Assembly (NCBI RefSeq): GCF_019890615.1
Contig: NZ_JAINVZ010000001.1
Span: forward strand, 434,001-498,000
Length of the DNA: 64,000 nt
Source: Streptantibioticus parmotrematis
GTDB taxonomy: Bacteria > Actinomycetota > Actinomycetes > Streptomycetales > Streptomycetaceae
Direction: 5' to 3'
Shown here: one piece after another, positions 16,090-19,912 of the stretch
Layout of the letters: each line of letters starts with the position of its first letter
How positions within the stretch are numbered: the first letter of the stretch is position 1
The notes under the pieces: model-generated
What the model saw: the letters and a program-made list of their open reading frames with translations, nothing else
Databases searched by the model: none
What the model was told of the DNA's origin: nothing
Translations under genes and position numbers: made by a program

Positions 16090-17502
16090 ATGACTGTCGA
16101 AGCCGACCCGCAAGCGCAGCCGGAGCACCCCCAGCAGACCAGTCTCAGTACGGCTGCTGCCCGCAACCTCGCGACCACGACCAAGTCCGTTCCGCAGATG
16201 CAGGAGATCACCTCCCGGTGGCTCCTGCGGCTTCTTCCCTGGGTGGAGACCAGGGGCGGCACGTACCGGGTGAACCGTCGACTGAGCTACACCGTCGGTG
16301 ACGGACGGGTGGACTTCATCCAGGACGGCGCCCAGGTCCGTGTGATCCCGCGCGAGCTGGGTGAACTGGCCTTCCTCCGTGGCTTCGACGACGAGGAGGT
16401 GCTGAAGGCGATCGCCGACCGGTGCGTGCAACGCGACTTCCAGCCCGGGGAGACGCTGGTGGAGGGCGGGACGTCCGCCGACCGGCTCCACCTGATCGCC
16501 CACGGGCGGGTACGCCAGACGTCGGTCGGCAAGTTCGGCAACAAGGTGGCCGTCGCGGTCCTCGCCGACGGCGACCGCTTCGGCGACCAGGCGTTGCTGG
16601 ACGGCGAAGGACAGTGGGAACACACGGCCACCGCCGAGACGGCCGGCACCTTGCTGACCCTCTCCAAGGACGACTTCGACGCCGTGCTGTCCTCGTCACG
16701 AGGCCTGCAGGACCACATTCGCAACTTCAGCACCATTCCTCACCAACGGCAGAACCGTCACGGTGAGGCCGAGATCGCCATGTCGTCCGGCCACAGCGGT
16801 GAGCCGGAGCTGCCCGGCACGTTCGTCGACTACGACCTGAATCCGCGCGAGTACGAACTGTCGGTGGCCCAGACCGTTCTCCGGATTCACACCCGGGTCG
16901 CCGATCTCTACAACGATCCGATGGACCAGACCGAGCAGCAGTTGCGGCTCACCATCGAGGCGTTGCGCGAACGCCAGGAGTACGAGCTGCTGAACAACCG
17001 GGACTTCGGCCTGCTGCACAACGCCGACTTCAAACAGCGCATCCAGACCCACTCCGGCCCGCCCACCCCCGACGACCTCGACGAGCTGCTGTGCCGTCGC
17101 CGCGGCTCGCAGTACTTCCTCGCCCACCCCCGTGCCATCGCCGCGGTCGGCAGGGAGTTCAACGCCCGCGGTCTCTACCCGACCCACGTCGACCTCGGCG
17201 GTCAACAGGTCCCGGCGTGGCGGGGGGTGCCCATCCTGCCGTGCAACAAGATCCCCATCACCGCGGACAACACCAGCTCGATCCTGGTCATGCGTACCGG
17301 CGAGGACAACCAGGGTGTGATCGGACTCCGGCAGACCGGTCTGCCGGACGAGTACGAACCGGGCCTGTCGGTGCGCTTCATGAACATCAACGAACGGTCG
17401 ATCATCTCCTACCTGGTGTCCACCTACTACTCCGCGGCCATCCTCGTCCCGGACGCACTGGGCGTGCTGGAGAATGTGCAGATCGGCCGCAAGGGCGACT
17501 GA
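16090..17502 (+). CDS. eshA: Family 2B encapsulin-type shell protein with cyclic-nucleotide-binding domain
   Basis: 470 aa. A disordered N-terminal arm (TLSTAA-like, about residues 1-40) is followed by a cyclic-nucleotide-binding fold (about 85-215: [29 protein letters not shown]) and a C-terminal HK97-type shell domain (about 235-470: [56 protein letters not shown]). Known family members self-assemble into a nanocompartment, and 2-MIB synthase, encoded next, has been described as cargo. The phosphate-binding loop reads [20 protein letters not shown] and lacks the usual Arg, so nucleotide binding may be weak or altered. ATG 16090 is taken over an upstream in-frame ATG at 16057 because GAGGGAGAG (16073-16081) precedes it. 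First gene of the 2-MIB operon. Confidence 0.88.
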
Positions 17503-17605
17503 CGCGCTCCTGCCGTGACCAGGAGACGGGCCCGTCGGCCGACCCGGACCGGTTCCACCCGGTCGGCCCCGGCCCGGCAGCCACTTGCCACGTCAAGGAG
17601 CCACC

Positions 17606-19021
17606 ATGTCCTCCTCCGAGCCCCCACCCCTGGCCGAGCACCCGCCGGGGACCGCTTCCCATCCCGCGCCAACACATCCCGTGTGCAGGCCTGTTCGGGT
17701 CGACGAACCCACGGCGGCGACCGGGGGCCTGCCCCACGCCCCTGCGCTGTCGTCGCCCCGCCCGGCCCTTCCCAGCAGCATTCCCGGTGACGCGGCGGTG
17801 ACCGGTCCCAAGGCGGAGCGTCTCCTGAGCGGCCCGAAAGGCCTGGGCACCACAGGGGTCCACCCGCGGCGGCCCGGAAAGCCCGTGAACCCGCTCGGCC
17901 CCCCGAACCCGGCCCTTCCCAGCGGCATCCCCGGTGACGTACCGGTGACCGGTCCCGAGGCGCAACAGCTCCTGGGCGGCCCGAAGGGCCTGGGCACGGC
18001 CAGTGCCTACCCGCAGCGGCCCCGGAAGGCCGCGGACCCGGTGGGCAACCCGGTCCCCGGCTTGTACTACCACCCGGTGCCGGAGCCCGACCCGGTGCGG
18101 GTGGCGGAGGTCGACCGCAGGATCAAAGCCTGGGCGATGGACGAGGTCGACCTGTACCCCGAGGAGTGGGAGGAGCAGTTCGACGGCTTCTTCGTCGGAC
18201 GCTACATGGTCGCCTGCCACCCCGACGCACCCACGATCGACCACCTCATGGTCGCCGCACGCCTGATGGTCGCCGAGAACGCCGTCGACGACTGCTACTG
18301 CGAGGATCACGGGGGCTCGCCCATCGGCCTGGGGGGACGCCTCCTGCTCGCGCACACCGCCCTCGACCCGCTGCACACCGCGGAGGAATACCAGTCGGCG
18401 TGGGCGCGGTCGCTCCAGTCCGACGCCCCCCGCAGGGCCTACCGGTCCGCCATGAAGTACTTCCTCGACTGGGCCGGTCCCTCCCAGGCCGACCGCTACC
18501 GGCACGACATGGCCCGCCTGCACATGGGATATCTCGCCGAGGCCGCGTGGACACAGACCGAGTACGTTCCCGAGGTGTGGGAATACCTGGCGATGCGCCA
18601 GTTCAACAACTTCCGTCCCTGTCCCACCATCACCGACACCGTCGGCGGCTACGAACTGCCCGCGGACCTCCAGGCTCAACCCGCCGTCCAGCGGATCATC
18701 GCGCTCGCAGGAAACGCCACCACCCTCGTCAACGACCTGTACTCCTACACCAAGGAGCTCGCCAGCCCCGGCAACCACCTGAACCTCCCGGTGGTGATCG
18801 CCGAACGTGAGGCGCTGTCCGAGCGCGATGCCTACCTGAAGGCCGTCGAGATCCACAACAACCTGATGCACGCCTTCGAGGCCGAGGTCGCGGCACTGAC
18901 CACCGCCCACGCGCTGCCGAACCTGCTGCGCTTCCTCCGGGGCGTCGCCGTGTGGGTGGACGGCAACCACTACTGGCACCAGACCAACACCTACCGCTAC
19001 AGCCTGCCCGACTTCTGGTGA
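17606..19021 (+). CDS. 2-methylisoborneol synthase (terpene cyclase)
   Basis: 471 aa. It cyclises 2-methylgeranyl diphosphate to 2-methylisoborneol, the earthy odorant. The catalytic domain starts near residue 155 and shows the Asp-rich motif VDDCYCED (228-234) and the second metal motif NDLYSYTKE (Asn376, Ser380, Glu384). The first 150 residues are Pro/Gly-rich and disordered and contain two copies of a segment with SIPGD...VTGP...GPKGLGT. This extension is known in the family and serves as the encapsulin cargo-loading region. ATG 17606 follows AAGGAG (17595-17600). The gene sits 103 bp after the shell gene and 12 bp before the methyltransferase start, in the canonical order. Confidence 0.95.
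   Translation: MSSSEPPPLAEHPPGTASHPAPTHPVCRPVRVDEPTAATGGLPHAPALSSPRPALPSSIPGDAAVTGPKAERLLSGPKGLGTTGVHPRRPGKPVNPLGPPNPALPSGIPGDVPVTGPEAQQLLGGPKGLGTASAYPQRPRKAADPVGNPVPGLYYHPVPEPDPVRVAEVDRRIKAWAMDEVDLYPEEWEEQFDGFFVGRYMVACHPDAPTIDHLMVAARLMVAENAVDDCYCEDHGGSPIGLGGRLLLAHTALDPLHTAEEYQSAWARSLQSDAPRRAYRSAMKYFLDWAGPSQADRYRHDMARLHMGYLAEAAWTQTEYVPEVWEYLAMRQFNNFRPCPTITDTVGGYELPADLQAQPAVQRIIALAGNATTLVNDLYSYTKELASPGNHLNLPVVIAEREALSERDAYLKAVEIHNNLMHAFEAEVAALTTAHALPNLLRFLRGVAVWVDGNHYWHQTNTYRYSLPDFW
17762..18004 (+). repeat. Two-copy coding repeat in the cargo-loading region of 2-MIB synthase
   Basis: Unit 1 (17762-17857, residues 53-84) and unit 2 (17909-18004, residues 102-133) are 147 bp apart. Both begin PALPS-x-IPGD and end GPKGLGT, with most residues identical. 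Conservation at the DNA level indicates a recent or homogenised duplication. Confidence 0.85.
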
Positions 19022-19033
19022 ATGGAGAAGCCT

Positions 19034-19912
19034 ATGATCGGCACCGGCTCCACCTCCACGTCAGCCCCGTCCATCCCGCGCCCGCAGACGCCGTACCAGG
19101 GGGACATCGCCCGTTACTGGGACGGTGAGGCCCGACCGGTCAACCTGCGTCTCGGCGATGTCGACGGCCTGTACCACCACCACTACGGCATCGGCGACGT
19201 CGACCACGCCGCCGTCGGCGCGAGCGACGACGCGCGGCACGAGGAGCGGCTGATCGCCGAGCTCCACCGGCTGGAGTCGGCCCAGGCCGACTGCCTCCTC
19301 GACCACCTGGGTCCCATCGGGCGCGATGACACCCTCGTGGACGCCGGCTGCGGACGCGGCGGTTCGATGGTCATGGCCCACCAGCGCTTCGGGTGCGCCG
19401 TCGAAGGCCTCACCCTGTCGGCGAAGCAGGCCGACTTCGCCAACTCACGCGCCGAGGACCTCGGCATCGCCGACCACGTCCACGCTCGCGTGTGCAACAT
19501 GCTTCACATGCCCTTCGACACCGGGCAGATCGCCGCCTCGTGGAACAACGAGTCGAGTATGTATGTCGACTTGAACGACCTGTTCGCCGAGCACGCGCGC
19601 GTCCTGGCCATCGGCGGACGGTACGTCACCATCACCGGCTGCTGGAACCCCCGCTACGGCCAACCGTCGAAGTGGGTCTCCCAGATCAACGCGCACTTCG
19701 AGTGCAACATCCACTCCCGCCGCGAATACCTGCGCGCCATGGCGGACAACCGGCTCGTTCCCCAAACCGTCATCGACCTGACCGCCGCGACCCTGCCCTA
19801 CTGGCAACTGCGCGCCACTTCCTCACTCGTGACGGGCATCGAGGACGCCTTCCTCAACTCCTACCGGGACGGCTCGTTCCAGTACCTCCTCATCGCCGCC
19901 GACCGCATCTGA
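19034..19912 (+). CDS. Geranyl diphosphate 2-C-methyltransferase
   Basis: 292 aa. A SAM-dependent methyltransferase with motif I LVDAGCGRGGSMVMA, the post-I region VEGLTLSAKQADFA, and substrate-binding motifs typical of the enzyme that C-methylates geranyl diphosphate (HHHYGIG near the start, SWNNESSMYVDLNDLFAEHA, TGCWNPRYG). Its product, 2-methylgeranyl diphosphate, is the substrate of the synthase encoded just upstream. The start at ATG 19034 is chosen over ATG 19022 because GGAG (19024-19027) sits six bases before it; the 19022 codon abuts the previous stop. Last gene of the operon, followed by a strong terminator. Confidence 0.94.
   Translation: MIGTGSTSTSAPSIPRPQTPYQGDIARYWDGEARPVNLRLGDVDGLYHHHYGIGDVDHAAVGASDDARHEERLIAELHRLESAQADCLLDHLGPIGRDDTLVDAGCGRGGSMVMAHQRFGCAVEGLTLSAKQADFANSRAEDLGIADHVHARVCNMLHMPFDTGQIAASWNNESSMYVDLNDLFAEHARVLAIGGRYVTITGCWNPRYGQPSKWVSQINAHFECNIHSRREYLRAMADNRLVPQTVIDLTAATLPYWQLRATSSLVTGIEDAFLNSYRDGSFQYLLIAADRI

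Follow-up and report, generated by a model that had tools for sequence, protein, structure and literature searches.

The 2-methylisoborneol (2-MIB) synthase encoded by the window, the 64,000-nucleotide stretch of Streptantibioticus parmotrematis DNA analysed here, carries two tandem copies of a putative shell-docking motif within a single N-terminal extension, where nearly all of its relatives have one. 2-MIB is an earthy odorant, and the operon as such is ordinary and already well described; the duplication within the synthase, however, is genuine and uncommon, and the two copies may share the work of binding to the encapsulin shell.

The operon and its products

The three genes proposed by the sequence-only reading, for a family 2B encapsulin-type shell, a synthase and a methyltransferase, all match curated families (NF041163, NF041167 and NF041943, respectively) above the cut-off of 400 bits that applies to each. 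The shell protein (470 aa; 16090–17502, forward strand) scores 773 bits with encap_f2b (NF041163) and contains an HK97-type domain (PF19307; E = 3e-141), into which a cNMP-binding-like domain is inserted (PF00027; residues 115–202; E = 9e-16). Its best match in the PDB is 9bhu_A, which covers residues 1–466, and it aligns end to end, with a score of 824 bits, with the shell from the family 2B 2-MIB operon of S. griseus; we take PDB entries 9bhu, 9bhv and 9bi0 to represent this latter protein, formerly named EshA. The S. griseus shell is said, in a study from 2024, to encapsulate 2-MIB synthase via the N-terminal disordered domain of the synthase.

The synthase of the window (17606–19021, forward strand), a terpene cyclase cargo, scores 483 bits with f2_encap_cargo2 (NF041167), contains PF19086, and matches the 2-MIB synthase structures 3v1v and 3v1x. 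Its membership of the family is further indicated by synteny with the shell and methyltransferase genes, and by the presence of GPxGLGT in a low-complexity N-terminal extension. Translation most likely begins at the ATG at 17606, behind an AAGGAG sequence, to give 471 aa, rather than at the TTG at 17585. The geranyl diphosphate 2-C-methyltransferase (296 aa; 19022–19912, forward strand) scores 469 bits with GPPMT (NF041943), and its ATG immediately follows the TGA of the synthase (19019–19024), which suggests translational coupling.

The host is a member of the Streptomycetaceae with a 7.4 Mb genome, and its genus was represented in the set searched by one other species (G001, hereafter the sister), the synthase locus of which carries an extension that is the same as in Streptomyces sp. 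ICBB 8177. Elsewhere in the host genome, a second family 2B shell gene (L212; G000:C23:245010-246356) lies beside a polyprenyl synthase gene, and belongs to a separate prenyltransferase-type encapsulin system.

A tandem repeat in the synthase extension

The extension occupies residues 1 to ~143 of the synthase and is rich in Pro, Ala and Gly: together with Ser and Thr, these account for 61% of its residues versus 33% in the remainder of the protein, a composition from which the extension would be expected to be flexible or disordered. Self-comparison reveals a tandem duplication of 147 nt that is exactly head-to-tail, such that unit 1 (17761–17907, forward strand) abuts unit 2 (17908–18054, forward strand), each being 49 codons long, with 79% nucleotide identity between them. 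The two 32-residue segments picked out by the sequence-only reading (17762–17857 and 17909–18004) are present at these positions, with 79 of 96 nucleotides and 23 of 32 residues identical, and they lie well beyond chance expectation: over 32 residues, the extension matches itself at 24 at best, whereas 200 codon shuffles reach 13 at most. At 72% residue identity, to call them near-identical was, nevertheless, too strong. The separation of 49 residues given at that time holds as a start-to-start spacing, and equals the unit length, but the true units are contiguous and comprise 49 codons rather than 32. Moreover, the part of each 32-residue segment that is conserved across the family amounts to only ~18 residues, the remainder being linker.

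The putative docking motif

Among 163 single-copy homologues, the sole strongly conserved part of the extension is a block of ~18 residues with the consensus LERILRGPSGLGTAGLxL, in which core positions mostly carry 3–4.3 bits versus 1–2 bits in the flanks. Likewise, in an alignment of 36 sequences, no columns of the extension proper are invariant apart from the initiator Met and those of GP.G.GT, and the single copy in the synthases of other species lines up with copy 2 of the window. By sequence comparison, copy 1 (KAERLLSGPKGLGTTGVHPR; 17810–17869, forward strand) has its GPKGLGT core at 17831–17851, and copy 2 (EAQQLLGGPKGLGTASAYPQ; 17957–18016, forward strand) has the same core at 17978–17998. 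The extension ranges from 22 to 246 residues in length among homologues, and the distance from the motif to the catalytic domain from 11 to 121 residues. Some synthases (L026, L038 and that of PDB entry 3v1v, which has GPTGPGT) show a variant core, GPxGPGT, with Leu replaced by Pro.

Andreas and Giessen (2021; PMC8346489) described GPTGLGT in most 2-MIB-synthase-like cyclases, where they proposed it as a targeting sequence, and twice in geosmin-synthase-like cyclases; our literature search yielded no further work on loading that addressed this motif. The suggestion that the repeated units carry a cargo-loading motif finds support here, in that each contains an element of this type, the element is the single sharply conserved part of the extension, and both cores have been kept. 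The motif would be predicted to bind to the inner face of the shell; it could also serve another role, for example, in enzyme regulation or as a dimer contact.

Copy number among Streptomycetaceae synthases

Counting the pattern from stop to stop in 188 distinct loci identified 179 single copies, five genuine doubles, one chance double and three loci without the pattern. Addition of the relatives of S. antibioticus, and retention of synthases with at least 70% identity, gave a set of 198 distinct Streptomycetaceae synthases, of which six have two copies and nearly all of the others have one; the two-unit state is, therefore, not invariant among homologues, whereas the sequence-only reading had named such invariance as what would make it ordinary. 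These totals were taken from the pattern count and the added relatives, instead of from a profile count with automatic starts, which returned 17 zeros, due mostly to wrong GTG starts, and missed the weakest of the window and sister copies. Copy 2 of the window scores 10.9 bits, just below the profile threshold of 12 bits, and, therefore, diverged second copies elsewhere could have escaped the count. Loose patterns had also flagged L127 and L056 as two-copy synthases, but in one of these the match arose by chance, and in the other it lay upstream of the start codon. Plasmids were searched as well, without useful additions to the survey.

The doubles fall into three lineages of two species each: the genus of the window, S. 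antibioticus and a relative, and GTDB genus g5, in which both gene-bearing members are two-copy. On a tree of the catalytic domain, the two-copy state needs three changes, and a constraint placing all two-copy synthases in one clade, as a single origin would require, was rejected (p-AU 0.001). The doubling arose at least three times and is, thus, rare yet recurrent. A single copy is a common feature of 2-MIB synthases, albeit not a defining one, so that the window synthase, which departs from it in having two, remains a member of the family.

History of the duplication in the genus

Within the genus, the tails that follow the motif match copy for copy: those after copy 1 (TGVHPxRPGKP) share 59% amino acid identity between the window and the sister, as do those after copy 2, whereas the two tails within one protein share 41% in the window and 24% in the sister. 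The copy tails are, therefore, orthologous between the two species, which places the duplication before their divergence and excludes independent duplications in each. The unit in the sister is 84 residues long, the difference residing in a stretch of ~35 residues between the copies. Over the 5' part of the units, DNA identity is higher within the window (86%) than to the sister (65–72%), pointing to later homogenization of the units, albeit with few supporting sites (Fisher p=0.048).

Strength and conservation of the two copies

Copies from two-copy proteins are poorer fits to the consensus than single copies are, also after correction for divergence of the catalytic domain. The difference is significant for all 12 copies (p=1e-6) and for the best copy per protein (p=0.001), and persists in the fairest count, the best copy per lineage (n=3; p=0.03), although only three lineages contribute to the pattern and the consensus is drawn largely from other clades. 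Only one of 176 single copies scores below the copies of the window, both of which are without Leu at positions +9 and +11; copy 2, in addition, has no Arg at −4. For comparison, the synthase of S. griseus (L029) has one copy, GPHGLGT, in its extension, whereas the window has two, both of which deviate more strongly from the consensus. With each copy poorer than the usual single copy, the binding work is probably shared, either through avidity or through redundancy, and the weakness of the individual copies hints at two docking sites that would divide this work between them.

Both copies also appear to be under selection, since their cores are wholly kept while the linkers drift: for the six fixed positions (GP.GLGT) of two copies in three species pairs, 36 of 36 comparisons are identical, versus linker identities of 58/96, 59/110 and 86/108 (54–80%). 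The dN/dS values of the 20-residue motifs are 0.12–0.15 in one pair, where constraint is clear, and 0.35–0.38 in another, where it is moderate. In the pair to which the window belongs, the motifs have values of 0.45 and 0.82, not distinguishable from that of the linker (0.49), and thus only the core looks constrained in this lineage. Retention of GPxGLGT is, by itself, no proof of simultaneous binding, given that the core is invariant everywhere.

Motif spacing and the shell receptor

The distance between motifs is 49 residues in the window and 84 in the sister, with 55–58 in the other two lineages. The idea that two copies might set cargo spacing is, therefore, disfavoured, as this distance varies even between sister species. 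In the shell, the only position peculiar to the window and the sister, relative to 108 other shells, is R126G, in the cNMP-binding-like domain, and this comparison gave no sign of a changed receptor co-varying with the doubled motif. A luminal loop has been suggested as the cargo site in two-component shells (PMC12407261), and the equivalent loop of the window shell is nearly the same as that of S. griseus. The lack of a matching change in the shell speaks for the usual receptor.

Discussion

Taken as a whole, we consider it probable, though by no means assured, that the synthase is a docked cargo in which two selected copies of the motif share the binding. The product of the operon would be a family 2B encapsulin nanocompartment with the 2-MIB synthase inside, the methyltransferase would supply 2-methylgeranyl diphosphate, and the ~18-residue motif in the flexible extension would dock on the inner face of the shell. 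An ancestral tandem duplication in the genus would have given rise to the two copies, both of which were then kept by selection, allowing each synthase chain either to dock at two sites or to have two chances of docking, with two poorer copies sharing what one stronger copy does elsewhere. Two copies would be expected to alter loading. An avidity-based interpretation is plausible, in that it fits the sequence evidence and has comparative support.

A neutral origin must be set against this, namely, that a second copy arose in this GC-rich, low-complexity region rich in proline, by unequal exchange or by slippage during replication, and is merely tolerated, one copy being sufficient. The extension is prone to indels and very variable in length, the two-copy state is rare, the linkers of the window and the sister are separated by a ~35-residue stretch, and the homogenization of the 5' parts suggests ongoing exchange; moreover, the motifs of the window pair have diverged at roughly the rate of the linker, and relaxed constraint following a neutral duplication would give a similar pattern of weak copies. 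It is harder to reconcile such neutrality with the complete retention of the cores beside drifting linkers, or with a two-copy state that not only arose three times, but on each occasion lasted through speciation, and we regard it as rather unlikely.

We think it very unlikely that the two copies divide their labour, with one docking here and the other contacting the methyltransferase or the second family 2B shell: although such a shell is encoded in the genome, and the copies differ at otherwise conserved positions (R in copy 1 versus Q in copy 2 at −4, and V versus A at +9), that shell system has its own putative cargo, and the operon's own shell preserves its luminal loop relative to S. griseus. 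Least probable, in our estimation, is that the motif is part of the catalytic mechanism or the synthase dimer interface and not a docking signal at all; its presence even where the extension of a homologue is very short would accord with this, but it sits in low-complexity sequence at widely varying distances from the catalytic domain, and geosmin-type cyclases have it both between their domains and following them.

Several described encapsulin systems come close to that of the window. In family 2A, the cysteine desulfurase cargo of SrpI is loaded via a long disordered N-terminal domain bearing two short conserved motifs, and a fragment with a single motif is not enough for loading (PMC8049743); those motifs differ from each other, whereas the window carries the same motif twice. 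The geosmin-synthase-like cyclases, like the synthase of the window, have two motifs of the same type in one cargo protein (PMC8346489). In these, however, a GPTGLGTSAAR element lies on either side of the second cyclase domain, one between the domains and one at the C-terminus, throughout the subfamily, whereas the doubling in the window is in tandem, within one N-terminal extension, rare and lineage-specific. The two-copy synthases of ICBB 8177 (representing the sister), of S. antibioticus and its relative, and of g5 resemble that of the window in having two GPxGLGT elements, but the S. antibioticus and g5 lineages duplicated independently. A literature search confirmed no published case of multivalent targeting in family 1 cargo. 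Two motifs per cargo are, therefore, already known from geosmin-type cyclases, and the tandem doubling in a 2-MIB synthase extension adds a variant.

The geosmin-synthase-like cyclase of the host genome (L256; G000:C4:180049-182295) has diverged motif-like elements, LPVGLGTSAADLGL between its domains and VPKGLGTSAVHL near its C-terminus, neither of which has the first Gly of GPxGLGT. Additionally, four terpene-cyclase cargo relatives with 37–40% identity (L226, L222, L227 and L223) have at least two GPTGLGT-like elements in their extensions, the two copies in L226 being 35 residues apart; accordingly, multi-motif cargo may be commoner outside the 2-MIB synthases of Streptomycetaceae.

Cargo selection in family 2B is poorly defined, the motif having been proposed from alignments. 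Natural synthases with one or two copies, whose shells are closely alike, constitute a ready test set with which to probe docking residues and valency, and would also be useful in the engineering of loaded nanocompartments. A broader proposal, which we advance tentatively and consider unlikely, is that motif valency tunes loading in family 2B, with lineages swapping one strong motif for two weaker ones, such that number and strength co-evolve. If true, such tuning would be a general rule for terpene-cyclase cargo, including the geosmin-type and the distant multi-motif cyclases.
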